Shown: positions 8,506 through 59,138 of the stretch, piece by piece
Layout: the number at the start of each line of letters is the position of its first letter
Numbering within the stretch: the first letter of the stretch is position 1
IMG/VR virus record: IMGVR_UViG_3300028920_000034
Coordinates: 62,001 to 126,000 of that record
Direction: 5' to 3' (one strand)
DNA length: 64,000 nt
Source of the DNA: a virus
Program-made: the position numbers and the translations under genes
The notes under the pieces: model-generated
What the model was told of the DNA's origin: nothing
Database searches by the model: none
Seen by the model: only the letters and a program-made list of their open reading frames with translations

Positions 8506-11500
8506 CTATTGCGAGCCGGCGCTCCGGACCTTGCTCGCGTTCGCACGTTGCCTGATCAGCCGAGCTCGCTTGGACTGCGCGCTCAGGTAGTCGCCAATGT
8601 CACCTTGGATGTAGACATTCACCTGGAACGTCCGGATGGCCTGGGTGAGCTGCGCGATGGCCACGCTCACGTCCGCCATGGCCGCTTTCGTGTCCTTGGA
8701 GATAGCGGCGCTCACCTGGCGCTCTGGCGTCCTTGCTCGGAACCCAGCTCGAGCCCCAGCACCAACTCCACCAGTGCCAGTGGCCGGAGCTTTCCCGAGA
8801 CCCTTCGTGCCGATCTTCTTGTAGCTAATCCCGGAGACCGTGGACCCCTCGCCCACCTTCAGGCGCGGATCGAACTTCTTGAGGGCCGCGATGATCTTGG
8901 GGCTCAACTCGACGTTTTTGCCCGTGAGGGCGCCCAGGTCCAGGCCCTTGAAAATCCGCTGCGCTCGAGCTCCCTGGAGACGACGGAAGATCCCACGGAA
9001 TGCTTCGCGTTGCTCCCTGGGTAGATCGTACAGATTTTCGCCCGTCTTGAGCTGCGCGTAGAGCTGCGTGAGCTGGTCCGCCCGGTCGCGCACCATCTTC
9101 CGCTGGAACTTCATCATGCCCTTGCTGAGTGCCTGTTGCATGGACATGCCCTTGTCCATGTACTCCTTGACCAGGGGCATGACGTTTTGCCCGAATATGT
9201 CCATCCGGATAGCCTTGGCGCGAGACCCCATCCGGGTGGCCCACCAATCGTAGAACTTGACCCTGGCTTGGCGCTCAATCTTCGTCTGCTTCTTGATTCT
9301 GTCCTTGAGATCCTTGGTTGAAACGCTCACGCCTTTCAGGCCCATCTTGTCCGCTTGTTGGCGAAGCGCATTGATCTTGCCCAGCACTGCCTGGAGCTCA
9401 CTTGTCTGCTTTGTGAACTTCTTTTGCTTTTCGAGTTGAGCCATCTGGAGCTTGATCTGAATCGCCGCTGCATCGCTCGCTGCCCTGGTGAGCTTCTGAT
9501 ACATCTTGGCGCCAGTCTGGCCCACGGACACCATTTCGCCGCCCACCTTGCCTCGCATCTTCGCGTAGGCCGCAGCGGACTGGTTCGCTCCGCTCGCGCT
9601 CGCGCGTGCCACGTTGGTGTTCCCCTGGGCAGCCGCGGAGCTCACATTCGTCCAGGTGGTGGCCGCGTTGGAGCTGGTGACGTTCATGTGGCCGGCCATC
9701 TGCGTGGTCACCTGGGCCGAGCTCATGCCCAGGAAGTTGAGGGCCGCTCCGCCCACCTGTTTCATGCCGTTCCAGAGCCAGTCAGCCGTCTCCTTGATCT
9801 GCTTCTGATTGGTGACCTGTTTATCCCTGGACACCGTGGTCGCCCTGGTGATGTTCTTGGACGCTTCGATCTGGTCCGCCTGCATCTTGGCGACCATCTT
9901 GTCCACGCTGGACGTGATGCTCGAGATGTTGACGCCAATCGTCTCGGTAGCTCCACCGAAGAACGACTTGAGCCCGTTGCCTACGGCGCTGAATCCGCCG
10001 CGCACCTTGTCGCCCACCGCACTCGCCGCGGATTTGATCCCTCCCCATGCCTTGCTTGCCATAGACTTCAGGCCGCCCCACGCTTTGGAGAAGAACCCGG
10101 TGATGGCCCCAGCCACCTTTTTCGCCGCGTTCTTGACCGCGCCGAACACCGCCAGTGCCACCTCCTTGATCTTGCGGAACGCCCAAGTGATGCCATCGTA
10201 GATCGCCGTGCCGATCTTCTTGTAGAACCCGATCACGGTACTCCACACGGCCTTGATCGCAGACCAGGCCGCAGTGGCCACCACCTTGAGCTTCTCCCAC
10301 ACCCAGCCAACCGCGCTGTAGATAGCATTGCCGATGGCAGAGAACACCTGGCTCGCTACGCCCCAGACGGCTTTGATTCCGTTCCAGGCCGCCGTGGCGA
10401 GCTGCCACAGCTTGCGGAACGGCCAGGAGATCATCGCCCAGATACCCTCCGCCAGCGTCGTCAGGCTGTCGCCCATGTAGCGCCACACCGCGAGCACCGC
10501 GCTCACCACCCCGGACACCACCTTGTAGAGCATCCGCCAAGGGAAGCTGATCACCTGCCAAATGGCGTTGGCCACCCACTTCAATCCTACCCACAGCCCC
10601 TGGAACGCCGTCTGCACCGCGCCAACCGTCCAGCTCGCTGCCTTCCACAGCATCCGGAACGGCCACGTGATGGCGTCCATGATGCCACGGCCGGTAGAAC
10701 CGAGCGAGGCGTACAGGGACTTCCAGCCCTCCACGATCAACGTGTAGAACAGCTTGATGCCATTCCACGTCATCTTGAAGGGGAACAGGAGCGCCTCGAG
10801 GAGGAAGCGCCCCATGCTCTTGAAGAAGCCCACGAAGTCCCCGCCGGCCAGCTTTTTGACCGCATCGATCAACGGCTTGATCACGCCCCACATCACCTTG
10901 AACGGTCCGGCGATGGCGTCCAGGATTCCCTTGCCTCTGACGCTGAGTGAGTCCCGCAGCTTGCCCCACAGGTGGCTCACCAGGTTGACCACGTTTTCCA
11001 CCACGCCACCGAGGTAGCGGAATGGGAACGTGATCGCCTTGAGCATGGCAATGCCGGCGTACTTGAAGAACCCCAGCACATCGCCCTTCCAGAGCGCCTT
11101 GATCGCTTTGATCACGGGCTGAATCAGGTCCCACAGCATCAGGAACGGGTGCAGGATGATCTTGGCAATGAGCTTCGCCGTCTTGCCCATCTGGCCCGTG
11201 AGAGCGTAGAACGCCACCCCCAGAGCTGCGATCACAGCGATGGCAGCCACCACTGGCCAGAATGCGATGCCCCACTGGGCAGCCATTCCGGCCGCCCAGG
11301 CGTACATCTTGGTGAGCATTCCGGCGAGCGTGGAATACATCGTGGAGGCGATCCACATCAGGCCCCGCAGCATGAGCCGCCTGGTGGACCCGAAGAACAT
11401 CATCGTGATGAAGATCCCACCGATCAGCTTGCCCTTTTGGGCCACCCCTTTCTCGAAGCCCATGGACCAATCGGTGAAGAACTTGTAGACCTGACTCCCG

Positions 11501-13515
11501 ACCGTGACCACCACCGTCTTGAGGGCCTTGCCGATGGCCCCGGCGAGCTTCTTGCCGGCCGCAGCGAACTTGCTCGCTGCCGTGTCCGTGGACTTGTCCA
11601 CGCCGGCCGTGACTCCCTTCGTGGCCTCCTTGCCGCCGAAGATGGCCTCGAAAACCCCGCGGAAAAACTTGCCCATGTAGGACAGGAGCTTCATGGTGAG
11701 GCCGCCCCAGTCTACCCCGGCGATGGCGTCCGCCAGGCGAAGCATCATCGGGCTCACCACGTCCATGAGCCAATTCATGGCCGCGATGGCCTTGTTCCAG
11801 GCCAGGTAGAGCCCCTCCTTGATCTGGGGCCACATTGCCGGGAGCTTCTCCTTGGCGTACTCCCAGAGCTTCTGGAGTCCGCTCAGGACCTTTTCGCGGA
11901 TGCCTTTGTGGAACAGCATCAGCCCGGCGAGGATGATTCCGCCTGGCATCAGGAGCTTGCCCAGGAAGGCGAACGAGACACCCATGGCCGCCAGGGCCGT
12001 GAGCATCGGGCCCATCTTCGTGACCACCATTTCGATCATCGGCCCCAGGTTGCCGAGTCCGACAAACAGGCCGGAGAGGCCCACGCGCTGCATGAGGAGG
12101 AGGCGCCTGGTGAGAGCTCCAATCGGACCCGACTTGTTGGCCAAACCGTTCTTTCCGCCGAGCCGCTTCATCAGGGAGTCGAATCCCTTGCGCTGCATCT
12201 TGATCCACTTGTTCAACTCGGGCTCGGAGAGCTTCTTGAGCCGGATATTGAACCGGTCCAGCATTCGCTTGTAGGCGTCCCCCTTCGTGAGCCCAGTACC
12301 GTAATTTTTCTTGGCCGCCTTGCCCATCGCCCCCAGGTACTTGGACTGGTTGGCGATCATCTCGTTCATCTTCGCCATGGCCTTGCTGGCCTTGCCCCAG
12401 GAGTCTTTCCCGGTAGCGAGGAACGAGACGTTGGCCCCCAGGGCCTTCGTGATGCTCGTCTTGAGCCGGAGGAAGCTGGCGCCCATGCTGCCGCCGCGCT
12501 TCTCCGCATCGGCGCTCATCTTGCGGAGGGCCTCCATGAACTTGGCGGGGTCCGCCATGATCATCTTGAAGGCTTTTTGGACCCCACCCTTTTCGGACAG
12601 CGCCTTGGCAATGTCCGAGAATCCGTCCCCCATCCCGATGAACATCCGCTCGAGACCCTTGCGTTCCTTTGCGAGCGTGGTGAACAAATTTTTGGAGAGC
12701 TCCAGAGCGTCCTCCGCGCTGGCGCCGAGCCCCTCCTTGAAGCCGGCCGCCAGCTTCATGATGGAGAACGTGAACTTCTCAATGTCCTTGGGGCCGGCCC
12801 CCTTGAACATCCCGGCGAGCTCCTTGTTGAGCACGTCCAGAATGCCTGGCATCCCTTGGACCGCCTCCTTGCCGAAGTTGAACTGCTTGCCAAGGGAGAA
12901 CACCATGTCCATCAGCCCGCGCACGCGCTTCGTGGTGAACCCGAACCCCTTAGTGAGCCCCGAGTAGATCAGGGCGAGCTGCTTCCCTTCGATGCCCAGC
13001 ACCGAGGTGACCCGGATGAGCTGGCGCGCCGTGGCCGTCATCCCCTTCGTGCCCAGCACCTCCTCGAGCTTGAGCCCCTGGCGACGGAAGGCCGCCCAGT
13101 TTTTCGCCGCCTCTCCCCAGTCAGTGTTGAGCGAGTAGGCCGCGGAGCTCAGGGCGGACTTCCACCGGCTGGCCACCTTGCTGTTCATGTTCATGCCCAC
13201 GGTGATCTCGCCCCACGTCTTGCGGAACTGGGCCGCTGTGGAGCTCAGGGCATTGTCGATGTTGGGGTTCATGGCCCGGTTGGCCATGTTGTCCAGGGCG
13301 CCGGTGACGGCCCCCATCAGCCCCTTGCCGCGGGAGGCGAGCCCCTTGAAGCTGGACGTGATTCGACCTGTCATCCTGGCCGCGTTTCCGGCCAGGTTCT
13401 TGAGCCCGTTCCAAACTGTCGTGAAGCCCTCGGAGACCTTGTTGAGGGTCGCACCGAGTGTCACGTCCTTGCCGAAGAACGTGAATCCGAGGCCGCCGAA
13501 GTTGTAGCCCGCCAT
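8506..13515 (-). CDS. Tail tape measure protein
   Basis: At 1669 residues this is by far the longest gene here. Its length should set tail length. Two hydrophobic stretches are clear, near residues 480-540 and 740-800, as expected for a protein that enters the host membrane during injection. From about 820 to 1160 there are repeated amphipathic units with a recurring PF-(R/K)-x-(L/M)-W motif and many tryptophans. The last 450 residues are Lys/Ala/Gln-rich helices. No lytic domain is apparent. It directly follows the frameshifted chaperone gene, the near-universal arrangement. Confidence 0.9.
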   Translation of the reverse strand: MAGYNFGGLGFTFFGKDVTLGATLNKVSEGFTTVWNGLKNLAGNAARMTGRITSSFKGLASRGKGLMGAVTGALDNMANRAMNPNIDNALSSTAAQFRKTWGEITVGMNMNSKVASRWKSALSSAAYSLNTDWGEAAKNWAAFRRQGLKLEEVLGTKGMTATARQLIRVTSVLGIEGKQLALIYSGLTKGFGFTTKRVRGLMDMVFSLGKQFNFGKEAVQGMPGILDVLNKELAGMFKGAGPKDIEKFTFSIMKLAAGFKEGLGASAEDALELSKNLFTTLAKERKGLERMFIGMGDGFSDIAKALSEKGGVQKAFKMIMADPAKFMEALRKMSADAEKRGGSMGASFLRLKTSITKALGANVSFLATGKDSWGKASKAMAKMNEMIANQSKYLGAMGKAAKKNYGTGLTKGDAYKRMLDRFNIRLKKLSEPELNKWIKMQRKGFDSLMKRLGGKNGLANKSGPIGALTRRLLLMQRVGLSGLFVGLGNLGPMIEMVVTKMGPMLTALAAMGVSFAFLGKLLMPGGIILAGLMLFHKGIREKVLSGLQKLWEYAKEKLPAMWPQIKEGLYLAWNKAIAAMNWLMDVVSPMMLRLADAIAGVDWGGLTMKLLSYMGKFFRGVFEAIFGGKEATKGVTAGVDKSTDTAASKFAAAGKKLAGAIGKALKTVVVTVGSQVYKFFTDWSMGFEKGVAQKGKLIGGIFITMMFFGSTRRLMLRGLMWIASTMYSTLAGMLTKMYAWAAGMAAQWGIAFWPVVAAIAVIAALGVAFYALTGQMGKTAKLIAKIILHPFLMLWDLIQPVIKAIKALWKGDVLGFFKYAGIAMLKAITFPFRYLGGVVENVVNLVSHLWGKLRDSLSVRGKGILDAIAGPFKVMWGVIKPLIDAVKKLAGGDFVGFFKSMGRFLLEALLFPFKMTWNGIKLFYTLIVEGWKSLYASLGSTGRGIMDAITWPFRMLWKAASWTVGAVQTAFQGLWVGLKWVANAIWQVISFPWRMLYKVVSGVVSAVLAVWRYMGDSLTTLAEGIWAMISWPFRKLWQLATAAWNGIKAVWGVASQVFSAIGNAIYSAVGWVWEKLKVVATAAWSAIKAVWSTVIGFYKKIGTAIYDGITWAFRKIKEVALAVFGAVKNAAKKVAGAITGFFSKAWGGLKSMASKAWGGIKSAASAVGDKVRGGFSAVGNGLKSFFGGATETIGVNISSITSSVDKMVAKMQADQIEASKNITRATTVSRDKQVTNQKQIKETADWLWNGMKQVGGAALNFLGMSSAQVTTQMAGHMNVTSSNAATTWTNVSSAAAQGNTNVARASASGANQSAAAYAKMRGKVGGEMVSVGQTGAKMYQKLTRAASDAAAIQIKLQMAQLEKQKKFTKQTSELQAVLGKINALRQQADKMGLKGVSVSTKDLKDRIKKQTKIERQARVKFYDWWATRMGSRAKAIRMDIFGQNVMPLVKEYMDKGMSMQQALSKGMMKFQRKMVRDRADQLTQLYAQLKTGENLYDLPREQREAFRGIFRRLQGARAQRIFKGLDLGALTGKNVELSPKIIAALKKFDPRLKVGEGSTVSGISYKKIGTKGLGKAPATGTGGVGAGARAGFRARTPERQVSAAISKDTKAAMADVSVAIAQLTQAIRTFQVNVYIQGDIGDYLSAQSKRARLIRQRANASKVRSAGSQ

Positions 13516-13569
13516 GGGTTGCTCGCCTACCTGGCGGGTCCAGTGGATCTAATCAGTACAATCGTGGCG

Positions 13570-13761
13570 CTAAACCCGCTTGATCTTGTTTAGCTCTGCC
13601 TTTGTTGCCGCTTCCCGCGCATCTTCCAGATCTGCCTTGCGTTGACACATTCTGAACCGCCTCGAGCTCGGCATTGTCATCGCATCATTATATGGGATCT
13701 GGAGCTCCTCCATAAGGTAGAAAACCTCGTGCTCCAGCTCCTTTATGTCCCCGAGGGGAAG
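13570..13761 (-). CDS. -1 frame extension of the tail assembly chaperone
   Basis: After the slippery heptamer the -1 frame stays open for 63 codons (starting LPLGDIKELEHEVFYLMEEL and ending LNKIKRV), filling the gap up to the tape measure gene. It has no ribosome binding site or start of its own. It overlaps the 0-frame stop by 18 bases. A fusion of 328 plus 63 residues, about 391 in all, is predicted. Long/short chaperone pairs of this type bind the tape measure during tail assembly in lambda- and P2-like phages. Confidence 0.7.
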   Translation of the reverse strand, partial: LPLGDIKELEHEVFYLMEELQIPYNDAMTMPSSRRFRMCQRKADLEDAREAATKAELNKIKRV

Positions 13762-14744
13762 AAAAAATCCTTTTGAGTAATGTCCAGATCGGCTTCGAAT
13801 CCGGCGCCACAGGATCCACACGTGTTGTCCACGCTGGTGTCGATCCCGCCCTCGCGCTTCTCGAATTCACCGCGGAGGAAGTTGCGGTCCTTGAGGGAGA
13901 GCTTTTTCAGGTCCTGGATCCGCACCGGGCGCCCGTTGATCTCCACCACGCGCGCCAGGAGAGCTGCGGACAGAAGATCCCGGCGCGCCTCCTGGGCCTT
14001 GGCCACGATGCTCTCATGCTTCCCGAGCATGATCCGGCACCGCGCCACGTGGCCCGAGCTCGGAAGGGTCACATCGTAGGCGCGCTCCATCGGATCCAGC
14101 ATCGGCTGGCGCTCGAGCTCGGTGAGGTTGACCCGGAGCCGGTTCTCCGCGCCGCACTGGGGACAGCGTGCGACGAACTTGAACCACTCCCCGTCGTCCA
14201 CACTGATGATCCGAAGGTGTAGCAGGAGAAGCGTGCGATCCGCGATGGTGAACTCCTCGAAGAGGCCGGGCATCTTGCGCGAATCCGTGATCCAGTCACC
14301 CTCATCGCCACCCACGCGCTCCATGCAGCCGGAGATCACCCGGGAGAACCGGGTGGCCGCTTCGATCCGACCGTTGGTGAGAATGTCCTCCTCCACACCG
14401 GTCATCTCACGTAGCAGTACCCGGTACAGGCGCCTGGGCTCCGCACCGTTCTCTTCGATGGCGCCCCCCAGGAGCTTCACCTCACCGCCGCTGTGGGTCG
14501 CGTTGTCCATGTCATAGGGAGCCGGCGCCTGGGGCTTGGGGGCGTCCAGGACGCCTCCCTGGTGAGCTCCCTTGAAGTCCGTGCCCAGTGAGGCACCCGG
14601 GGCGGGGCCGCCGGGGATGCCAGGGGGCGGACCGTCCGACTTGGGTGGCCCCTGGTGACGCTCACCAGCCGGCTTGGGCGGGGCGAAGTTGACGCCTTCG
14701 GGCATCGGCCGGGGATCGGTGGGCTTGCTCTCATCAGTGCTCAT
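13743..14744 (-). CDS. Tail assembly chaperone / gp26-like zinc protein (short form)
   Basis: A 333-residue protein. The first 80 residues are a proline/glycine-rich tail. The core (about 100-330) has TGVEEDILTNG, a DRTLLLLHLRI helix, FKFVARCPQCGAENRLRVNL and a second CGSCG near the end, so four cysteines in two CxxC pairs likely bind zinc. This matches the T4 gp26-type family of tail or baseplate assembly proteins (MTGxEE..., LLLxLRI, C-x2-C). The gene ends in TAA at 13743 just downstream of a T-TTT-TTC slippery site. Its place before the tape measure supports the chaperone role. Confidence 0.75.
   Translation of the reverse strand: MSTDESKPTDPRPMPEGVNFAPPKPAGERHQGPPKSDGPPPGIPGGPAPGASLGTDFKGAHQGGVLDAPKPQAPAPYDMDNATHSGGEVKLLGGAIEENGAEPRRLYRVLLREMTGVEEDILTNGRIEAATRFSRVISGCMERVGGDEGDWITDSRKMPGLFEEFTIADRTLLLLHLRIISVDDGEWFKFVARCPQCGAENRLRVNLTELERQPMLDPMERAYDVTLPSSGHVARCRIMLGKHESIVAKAQEARRDLLSAALLARVVEINGRPVRIQDLKKLSLKDRNFLRGEFEKREGGIDTSVDNTCGSCGAGFEADLDITQKDFFFPSGT
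13761..13767 (-). other. Programmed -1 ribosomal frameshift site (T TTT TTC)
   Basis: Read on the minus strand, the 0-frame codons are GAT TTT TTC, so the heptamer T-TTT-TTC is in the exact X-XXY-YYZ register for -1 slippage. Two bases downstream is CCCCTCGGGG, a short inverted repeat that could act as a stimulator. The 0-frame stop follows 15 bases after the site, and the -1 frame continues for 63 codons. Confidence 0.7.
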
Positions 14745-15038: not shown

Positions 15039-15287
15039 CTACTTGGCGGCCGTAGAATGGGGAAACAGGATCTCTTCCCGCACGCGCGTGCGGGCCTTGC
15101 GCTTGCGCTTGGGTTCCCCAGTGACCGGGGCTGGCCATGCCCGGCGCACGATGGTCGGTGGGCTCACCTCTGGCCCCAGGATGGCCGCTGGGAACACCAT
15201 GCTGGCCGTGGTGGCCTCCTGGGTCATCTGGCCCTGGAGATACGCCCACAGGGCCTCACGCTGTGCTCTGGATAGGTTCATGGTCAC
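15039..15287 (-). CDS. Small protein after the second tail tube gene
   Basis: Up to 82 residues. A GTG at 15287 overlaps the preceding stop, and an ATG two codons later is equally possible. The N-terminal half is helical (LSRAQREALWAYLQGQM); the C-terminal half is basic (EPKRKRKARTRVREE). I recognise no family. It is the last gene before the promoter-operator region, so it closes the sheath-tube transcription unit. Confidence 0.55.
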   Translation of the reverse strand: MTMNLSRAQREALWAYLQGQMTQEATTASMVFPAAILGPEVSPPTIVRRAWPAPVTGEPKRKRKARTRVREEILFPHSTAAK

Positions 15288-15880
15288 CCCGTGATGGAGA
15301 ACTCCTCGATCCGGTCCGGGTGCAGCTCGAGCTCCATCAGGGAGATCTCGCTGGAACTGGCATCGAAATCACTCCCAGATTTATACCTAATTGGTAGGCA
15401 ATCCATCAGGAGCCACGCCCGGGCCGGCACCCGAAGGATGCCCCCCACGTCCGGGAGGAACCCCCGAGCCACCTGGGCGACTGCCTGGAGCTCGGCACCA
15501 GCTTCACCGATGGCCGTGGCGCTGTACCCGGTAAACTGGATCAACAGGAGATTGCGCCGCTTGCCGCTCATGGATCCAAACGGCCCCCCGGGGCTCCCCT
15601 TGACCGTGGCCACAATCCACCGCCAGAACTCCGAATCGTAGAAGCTGGCCCCGCGGGTCAGCGTGATGGAGCTCACGGATCCACCTGAAATCAGGTGCCG
15701 CTTGAACGGGTGCGTGCCCTCCGCGAGCTCCTCCACCTCGAGCTGCACCTCGGGAGCGGTAATGGACTTGAAGGAAAGGAGCGGGTCCAGGGCCCAGGGT
15801 GGGAACGCCAAGCTGTAGGACACGTCCATCAGGTGAAACTGGTACACCTGGAGCCGGTCCAGTAAACGGATCCGGGGCAT
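15284..15880 (-). CDS. Tail tube-like protein, second gp19-type paralogue
   Basis: A 198-residue protein that resembles the tube gene just upstream. It shares a SVSSITLTRGASFYDSEFWRWI segment (VTLQRGVTKAFTGFWDWI in the tube) and a DASSSEISLMELELHP end (DATSSEISLAELELTC in the tube). This is the gp19 tail-tube fold. The copy is about 40 residues longer, with an insertion near residues 100-150. It may be a tube-initiator or terminator ring, as paralogous tube proteins are in some contractile tails. Confidence 0.72.
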   Translation of the reverse strand: MPRIRLLDRLQVYQFHLMDVSYSLAFPPWALDPLLSFKSITAPEVQLEVEELAEGTHPFKRHLISGGSVSSITLTRGASFYDSEFWRWIVATVKGSPGGPFGSMSGKRRNLLLIQFTGYSATAIGEAGAELQAVAQVARGFLPDVGGILRVPARAWLLMDCLPIRYKSGSDFDASSSEISLMELELHPDRIEEFSITG

Positions 15881-15919: not shown

Positions 15920-16393
15920 CTACGCGATGGCAATGTCCATCTCCTCGCAGGTGAGCTCCAGCTCCGCCAGCGAGATCTCCGAGCTGGTGGCGTCCAGGTC
16001 ACCCGTGGGCTTCACGCGGCTCGGGAACGCCTGGCCGAGCTCCACGCGGAAGCTGGCGGCGCCCTGAATGTCGTCCTCACGATGGTAGTGGTGGATGATC
16101 AGATCCACACGGTACTCCGCACCGCGGATGGATCCGATGATCCAGTCCCAGAACCCGGTGAACGCCTTGGTGACGCCACGCTGGAGCGTGACTTCGGAGA
16201 CCGTGGGGGGACCCGGTTGCTTCTTGGTCCAGGTGTCTTTCCCCTCGCGGTACTCGGCCGCCTCCTGGCTGGTCTCCGGGATCGTGATGTTGTTGAACCC
16301 CGTCCCTTCCTGGACGTAGGCCGTGCCGTTCCAGGTGAACGAAGCACCGAACCGGAACGCCTGGTAGTAGTCGAGAGCAATGGAACGCGCCAT
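15920..16393 (-). CDS. Tail tube protein, T4 gp19 family
   Basis: At 157 residues it has the usual length of gp19-type inner tube proteins. Family features are ETSQEAAEYREGKDTW, then VTLQRGVTKAFTGFWDWI and a final strand-rich DATSSEISLAELEL. It polymerises into the tube inside the sheath. GGAAAGGAG lies seven bases before the ATG, consistent with a highly expressed structural gene. It follows the sheath gene directly. Confidence 0.88.
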   Translation of the reverse strand: MARSIALDYYQAFRFGASFTWNGTAYVQEGTGFNNITIPETSQEAAEYREGKDTWTKKQPGPPTVSEVTLQRGVTKAFTGFWDWIIGSIRGAEYRVDLIIHHYHREDDIQGAASFRVELGQAFPSRVKPTGDLDATSSEISLAELELTCEEMDIAIA

Positions 16394-37124: not shown

Positions 37125-37146
37125 GGGAAAAAAACAAGGAGGGTCA

Positions 37147-58367: not shown

Positions 58368-59138
58368 CTCCTACCTACCTAATGGGCGCTACGGGCCAGA
58401 TGTTGCCGTTCCGGTCCGATTTTTTTCGCGGCGAGGCGCGGGGAGCTCGTCCACAGCTCCGGCCACCGGCCGGCGTACCCCACACGCTTCCCCCCACGCT
58501 TGGAACCTCCCCACGGCTCTCCTACACTTACCCCCACGCCTCCCACGGCTCCACCAGGACGCTCGCCCACAACCCCACCCCAGTACCCCGAAACCTACCG
58601 CTCGCTCCGCTCGCACCTCACCTGGACAAGCAACCCCGAAACGCCCCAGACCTTCCACCGCATCACCCACACCTTCCACCGCACTCCCAAGACTTTCCCC
58701 CGCACTTCCCCCGCACCAGCGCATCGCACCAGCGCCCCGCACTCGCGTTCGCCTCGCCCGCACGCACGTGCGTCACACCCTCTGGGGAAAAAAACACCCC
58801 CCCAATGTGAGAGGGTCCCGCACGGGGTCCCGGAACCCGGATTCGAATCCACTTTCTTGACTGGATCCATCCGGAATACCCCCCCTCCACCCCTGGGGTG
58901 TCGGATCCACAGTCGGATCCACAGCACCGAGGCGCCGGTGGCCTCGAGGCGCGCCGCCCCCCGGGCCGAGCCCGGCCGGGATCCACTCCGCCCCCGGTGG
59001 CCAGACTGGGATCCACAACGGCGAGGCGCCGCCCCCGGGCCGGGGCCCGCTGCACTCACGTTCGGGGAGCTCGAGGTAGACGCGCCCGGGGCTGGCCCGG
59101 GCCGGGGCAGGGTCGCGCGGGGGACGCGCCCGGGGCGG
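58368..59138. other. 771-base non-coding region with strong strand skew and G-rich minus strand
   Basis: No acceptable gene. From about 58480 to 58800 the plus strand is C-rich and poor in G, so the minus strand has many G runs (GGGGTGGGGTTGTGGG type), with G-quadruplex potential. Short direct repeats (ACCTTCCACCGCA twice, then ACTTCCCCCGCAC) occur near 58650-58720. CCCGCACGCACGTGCG (58760) and GATTCGAATC (58840) are shared with the gap at 60.9 kb. Origin, packaging or control region are all possible. Confidence 0.55.
58840..58849. promoter_or_regulatory. GATTCGAATC palindrome
   Basis: Part of the 12-bp palindrome GGATTCGAATCC in the non-coding region. It shares its core with sites at 15021, 37176, 60883 and 60930. 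It is about 40 bases from a run of seven A, as also seen near 60960 and 37126. Confidence 0.45.

Follow-up and report, generated by a model that had tools for sequence, protein, structure and literature searches.

A gp26-like phage gene with a conserved slippery heptamer and a probable −1 gp51-type extension ahead of the tape-measure gene

Two overlapping frames precede the tape-measure gene

The DNA analyzed in this study, termed the window, is a 64 kb portion (64,000 nt) of an IMG/VR virus record of 153,114 bases. Nearby genes for a sheath, for two gp19-type tube proteins and for the hub region show that the virus is a phage with a contractile tail. Between the sheath/tube genes and the tape-measure gene, an open reading frame (ORF) for a gp26-like protein, here called the short form, overlaps a second open frame (Table 1). 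The minus-strand codons at the end of this ORF are GAT TTT TTC TTC CCC TCG GGG ACA TAA, which places the stop codon six codons after a T_TTT_TTC heptamer.

An initial annotation, made from the sequence alone, had claimed that this heptamer, 15 nt ahead of the 0-frame stop, is in the correct register and that it opens a 63-codon −1 extension before the tape measure. Direct reading bears out both statements. The heptamer occupies 13767-13761, the −1 frame is open from there over 63 codons and ends at 13570, and the tape-measure gene starts at 13515, directly downstream of the two overlapping frames. Ribosomes that shift at the heptamer would produce a fusion protein of 391 aa. The tail operon also contains a small Arc/RHH-like gene whose 3′ end shares 4 nt with the start of the short-form gene.

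Table 1. Positions of genes and sequence features at the locus, numbered from the first nucleotide of the window
Feature	Position	Strand	Basis
Short form (TAC-N, gp26-like, 333 aa)	13743..14744	minus	direct reading of the ORF
Slippery heptamer T_TTT_TTC	13761..13767	minus	X_XXY_YYZ register, 15 nt 5′ of the 0-frame stop
TAA that ends the 0 frame (short form)	13743..13745	minus	direct reading
−1 extension (63 codons + TAG), probable gp51-type C-terminal domain (TAC-C)	13570..13761	minus	hhalign against +1 tails
TAG ending the −1 frame	13572-13570	minus	direct reading
Possible stimulatory RNA: small hairpin right after the heptamer, longer stem about 20 nt on	13690..13760	minus	weak folding evidence
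Tape-measure protein, 1669 aa, presumed client	8506..13515	minus	tape-measure PHROGs, among them phrog_58 (E 1.6e-24)
Tail tube protein, presumed partner of the long form	15920..16393	minus	PF06841 (E 1.2e-16)
Two adjacent gp19-type tube proteins	15284-15880 and 15920-16393	minus	PF06841 (both)
Arc/RHH-like protein, 76 aa	14741-14971	minus	phrog_2639 (E 8e-4)

The short form is a zinc-motif protein of the gp26 family

The short form matches the Pfam family T4_baseplate (PF12322) with 28.2 bits against a cut-off of 24.5 (E 1.8e-6), the match covering only part of the profile (positions 61-105 of 219). It also matches phrog_150, ‘baseplate hub’, with an E-value of 1.3e-9. CxxC pairs are present at residues 194/197 and 309/312. 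An AlphaFold2 model built from an 18-row alignment has a pLDDT of 80.7 and is confident over residues ~85-329. When the short form was used to search BFVD, the proteins retrieved included members of the gp26 family such as a hub subunit of phage SP-15 (TMt 0.78, prob 1.00) and gp26 of Aeromonas phage 25 (prob 1.00), and a fold search of the PDB gave nothing matching either the short form or T4-type gp51. By profile match and predicted structure, the short form is thus a zinc-motif protein of the T4 gp26 family.

The gp26-type zinc protein named in the initial annotation is therefore well founded as to family and putative zinc motif, except that the proline-rich part, taken there for a tail, is an N-terminal arm. 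This arm falls within the low-confidence residues 1-84 of the model and is probably disordered.

The −1 extension resembles the frame-shifted tails of relatives

Relatives of the short form carry tails in a −1 or a +1 frame (see below), and these were used to ask what domain the extension might encode. Aligned alone by hhalign with 31 +1 tails, the window tail scored 68.6% (E 4.6e-5). None of 150 shuffled sequences and none of 300 other open stretches of the window scored as high, and four wrong-frame controls gave 0.1-0.2%. Removal of the FFLP start that the tails share lowers the score against the +1 tails to 30-44%. When compared directly with the T4-like −1 tails the window tail scores 1.4%, which is no match, and it does not match phrog_634 either; its link to gp51 consequently runs through the +1 relatives. 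That route consists of strong scores: 96.2% (E 2.1e-9) between the T4-like −1 tails (56 sequences) and the 31 +1 tails, 98.0% between the tails of the LR756511 group and the +1 tails, and 94.7% in a profile comparison between the C-terminus of T4 gp51 and the −1 tails. These comparisons support the assignment of the extension as a putative gp51-type C-terminal domain, related to the tails that relatives carry in a shifted frame.

Long open frames are common at the 64% GC content of the window, so the openness of 63 codons means little by itself and it is the similarity to the tails of relatives that counts. The same property would favor an accidental open frame. Alternatively, the T run could have been misassembled, breaking a gene that is in fact continuous, and an in-frame fusion gene of this kind is known in T4 (gp51). 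Neither accident nor error would account for a tail that matches those of relatives when all controls are at zero. Moreover, a second assembly that differs upstream has the same six-T run and stop, and the arrangement is common to the LR756511 group. Accident or error is the least probable of the explanations considered here, and we give it almost no weight.

The Pfam domain DUF6760 was also considered as the identity of the tail and was set aside, since two of 12 tails match it with a best E-value of 0.02, under the curated cut-off, which is a hint at most. This weak likeness (L168 tail, E 0.02; BRock tail, E 0.17) might indicate the same domain occurring elsewhere.

The heptamer is rare in the window and recurs in the LR756511 group

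Genes of the window seldom use TTT, the first of the two Phe codons at the heptamer. Among 17 window genes, Phe is encoded 19 times by TTT and 201 times by TTC, and Asp 92 times by GAT and 235 times by GAC. By arithmetic from these counts, Asp-Phe-Phe is expected to be spelled GAT TTT TTC about 2% of the time. TTTTTTC occurs only four times in the 64 kb when both strands are counted; the other three occurrences are at 37127 and 58787 on the minus strand and at 58421 on the plus strand.

The longer sequence T_TTT_TTC_TTC_CC is found at the same place in LR756511 (L010) and in three further loci (L177, L178 and L179). The codon preceding the heptamer differs, being GGT, AAT or AGT in the LR756511 group and GAT in the window, and it always ends in T. 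The initial annotation had named the loss of the heptamer where the −1 extension is kept as an outcome that would speak against its proposal. The heptamer is in fact retained with the extension, both in the LR756511 group and in the T4-like loci described below.

The only near relative of the window (L002) has 97% DNA identity to it and is identical over the slip-site stretch from ~13775 to 13501, and for this reason is uninformative on conservation of the slip site. Scans for closer kin with single proteins (the gp26-like protein and the sheath) found only this 97% copy, and none was found among plasmids, or among phages by megablast. The identity to L002 at positions 13501-13775 extends over ~275 nt with zero differences, intergenic bases included, where most nearby 200-nt bins differ at several sites. 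Recent exchange or strong constraint may be responsible.

T4-like phages carry the same heptamer at the end of gene 26

In T4-like relatives, the heptamer is found with a −1 gp51 frame before the tape-measure gene in KVP40, Bellamy, Aeh1, P-HM1, ZPAH1, S13 and BUCT608. The gene after gp26 in KVP40, Bellamy and P-HM1 is annotated as gp51 or hub assembly, lies in the −1 frame and is open back to the heptamer, which precedes the gp26 stop by one codon. Aeh1, ZPAH1 and S13 carry the same −1 tail without annotation.

All 80 Bellamy-like loci from IMG/VR likewise have an in-frame T_TTT_TTC, again one codon ahead of the gp26 stop, and T_TTT_TT[C/T/A] is present at the stop in 32 of 33 further T4-like loci. 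The one miss is L132, which was left out of the trees. T6 is absent within 20 nt of its apparent stop, whereas L122, obtained in that scan at a comparable score, has it. Elsewhere in these loci, Phe-Phe pairs are spelled NNT TTT TTY in 13 of 303 cases (Bellamy-like loci) and 3 of 99 (other T4-like loci). Both Phe codons of the site are invariant in 79 Bellamy-like gp26 genes (L084 is excluded from this count), and the preceding codon is TCT, AGT or GGT, again always ending in T. Among 96 conserved degenerate columns in these 79 genes, where the median frequency of the dominant codon is 0.66, no TTC column other than that of the slip site is invariant. The Bellamy-like loci are related to one another and hence these conservation counts are not independent.

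Phage T4 itself uses two separate genes, 26 and 51, that lie on opposite strands. Its gene 26 ends with GAG TTC TTT GAG TTA CTA TAA and has no slip site. T4 gp51 matches PF12322 over residues 1-201 (E 3.9e-52) and phrog_150 at positions 13-280, and so combines a gp26-like domain and the tail in a single frame. In a 59-row tree, T4 gp26 and gp51 are sisters with SH-aLRT support of only 84 on a very long branch, and the two genes are likely to derive from one duplication. A T4-type gp51 gene that is split over two frames occurs at L188:3001-3746 and may be a sequence error or a real break.

An alternative reading of all these loci, and the one assumed in the annotation of KVP40, Bellamy, P-HM1 and BRock, is that the downstream frame is a separate small gene that has its own start codon and whose translation is coupled to that of the short form. 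The KVP40 and Bellamy annotations start gp51 at its own start codon, and 78 of 80 cyanophage −1 tails have an ATG at most eight codons from the heptamer, so that in these phages gp51 could be translated independently; the window has AAAGGAG after the stop of the short form. Against this reading, the first ATG, GTG or TTG in the −1 frame of the window is an ATG located 18 codons past the heptamer, within a helix of the conserved part. In addition, the −1 translations of Aeh1, ZPAH1 and S13 contain no Met before the conserved part, and 17 of 30 +1 relatives have neither ATG nor GTG nor TTG over the 20 codons that follow the site. The invariance of T_TTT_TTC would also serve no purpose if the frame were translated from its own start. 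We therefore regard a separate coupled gene as improbable.

The direction of the shift differs among relatives

The nearest clade to the window consists of the BRock group of Streptomyces phages, Bacillus phage SP-15, Listeria phage LIS04 and Streptococcus phage GXN1. As in the window, the gene for a gp26-family protein overlaps a following frame that encodes the same C-terminal domain, and both lie before the tape measure. In contrast to the window, the frame of this domain in most relatives of the clade is +1 (or −2), beginning at the same Phe-Phe pair, typically at TTT.C. Among 30 +1 relatives (L151 included), the second Phe codon is TTT in 28 and the next base is C in 25. The BRock-group phages (L003, L005, L006, L007 and L172-L176) share CTG TTT C.. 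GAA CTC T(A/G)A TTA as a conserved sequence and carry their tail in +1. A subgroup (L156, L159-L161, L165 and L166) carries Leu-Phe-Asn with a conserved CCC AGT that replaces TTT CGT, and the +1 slip there may have moved to CCC.A.

Trees were constructed after loci without a 0-frame stop (L134, L143, L149 and L167) had been dropped ahead of any counting. Kept out of the trees were weak matches with −1 tails (L169-L171), repeats of named phages (L137, L172, L120 and L103) and L136, a single +1 tail found by the A2 scan that also stands outside the A2 count. Rows with at least 80% identity were thinned from 162 to 78, and 19 further cyanophage rows were omitted from the 59-row tree. In this quick tree, a T4-like clade, which comprises only −1 rows plus both T4 genes, is set apart from the rest; Kuja (L101), with AAC CTT TTT CAA and not the heptamer, is labelled −1 by frame. 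A more careful 40-row tree, from which the C-terminal site had been trimmed off, has the Streptomyces phages next to the window (99/98) and the LR756511 group at another position.

The window and the LR756511 group are thus −1 lineages nested among +1 relatives, and this topology implies at least three changes of direction. Three were counted on the 40-row tree, with a range of 3-3 over 200 bootstrap trees. The AU test rejected trees in which the window and the LR756511 group were held together (p = 0.033) and trees in which all +1 rows were held together (p = 0.035), values that are modest, that concern constraints named after the tree had been seen, and that involve a window sequence with at most 28% identity to any row. 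On balance, we lean toward a history in which this protein family has kept recoding at the same Phe-Phe pair while the direction of the shift reversed at least three times: T4-like phages using −1 on T_TTT_TTN, a sister clade using mostly +1 on TTT.C, and the window and the LR756511 group using −1 again. If so, selection acts on the possession of a minor long form regardless of the way it is made, and the two separate genes of T4 would be another route to the same end. The natural series of −1, +1 and two-gene arrangements also raises the question of whether evolution holds the ratio of long to short form constant, and not the mechanism.

Possible stimulatory elements near the slip site

RNA folding downstream of the window heptamer gave a minimum free energy of −26.4 (z −2.07), with eight of 200 shuffled sequences equally good. 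With another shuffler and 70 nt of sequence the z value was −1.41. The corresponding values at L177 and L179 were 0.37 and 1.81, and the structure of the window is not common to these loci. An Rfam search over 13300-14100 gave no match.

Upstream of the heptamer, AGGG is present at a distance of 8-9 nt in 78 of the 80 Bellamy-like loci (L015-L094), compared with 144 of 356 other Glu-Gly pairs. This bias suggests that AGGG is a probable Shine-Dalgarno-like stimulator of the −1 shift in these phages. A stimulatory Shine-Dalgarno-like element is located at a comparable place in dnaX. The window has neither AGGG nor another Shine-Dalgarno-like sequence at 8-9 nt upstream, and AAAAGGA abuts its heptamer instead.

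These features also bear on whether the long form could arise by transcriptional slippage on the T6 run and not by ribosomal frameshifting. A run of six Ts is present at the site, and RNA polymerase does slip on T runs in bacteria. However, T6 is short for polymerase slippage, and several +1 relatives have just TTC TTT C at the corresponding place. The in-register heptamer and the AGGG located 8-9 nt upstream in relatives point to ribosomal frameshifting. Transcriptional slippage is, in our judgment, very unlikely.

A proposed tail-assembly chaperone pair

Taken together, the sequence comparisons and the analogy with phage lambda make it highly probable that the locus encodes a pair of tail-assembly chaperones, in which a gp26-like short form and a minor −1 gp26-gp51 fusion work like lambda gpG and gpGT. 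Most ribosomes would terminate at 13743 and release the 333-aa short form. In a minority, the Phe-tRNAs on TTT TTC would move back by one base to pair with TTT TTT, and the slipped ribosomes would read a further 63 codons to 13570, yielding the fusion that bears the gp51-type domain. If the proteins act as in lambda, the tape measure would be coated by the short form, and the long form would use its tail domain to recruit tail-tube subunits. The lambda gpG/gpGT heptamer differs from the T_TTT_TTC of the window.

Relationship to known frameshifted chaperones

An article by Vladimirov, Gautam and Davidson (2022; Virology 566:9-15) reportedly names genes 26 and 51 in its abstract. Through its citation in two later articles, the link that the initial annotation drew between the gp26 family and the tape-measure chaperone role proves to be right but already in print for T4-like phages: a passage of PMC12846349 notes poly-T slip signals in their TAC-N genes, and one of PMC10885494 notes T4-like phages that have a short gene together with a long, fused one. 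The chaperone role of the gp26 family and its −1 site are thus known, and the window is a new, distant member. It resembles the T4-like gp26/gp51 (TAC-N/TAC-NC) systems in having a gp26-family short form, a gp51-type C-terminal domain by the comparisons above, and T_TTT_TTC before the tape measure. Unlike them, it falls outside the T4-like clade, has a long N-terminal arm and lacks an upstream AGGG; their stop follows the heptamer by one or two codons, that of the window by six.

The lambda gpG/gpGT model is described in a passage of PMC5009743, where G-T frameshifting is said to be widely conserved ‘except T4’ and a haloarchaeal myovirus is considered very likely to have a +1 chaperone. In lambda, as described there, and by prediction in the window, a short form and a minor −1 fusion are encoded just before the tape measure, a likeness of arrangement and presumed function. 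Tail chaperones of Vandenendeviridae and Andersonviridae, in the portion of PMC12846349 that concerns them, are likewise comparable by arrangement, with a conserved −1 frameshift and a poly-T slip site before the tape measure, although their slip sequence is GTTTTT. Our searches of the literature, which covered gp26, gp51, frameshifting and tail chaperones as a joint subject, found no description of a +1 form of the gp26 family or of repeated direction change within one family.

The locus and its relatives carry the gp26/gp51 chaperone assignment well past the T4-like phages. They also draw attention to genes in BRock, GXN1, SP-15, Aeh1, ZPAH1 and S13 that current annotation overlooks or begins at internal starts; in the BRock-group phages, the frameshift is unannotated and the small gene is either missed or called from internal starts.
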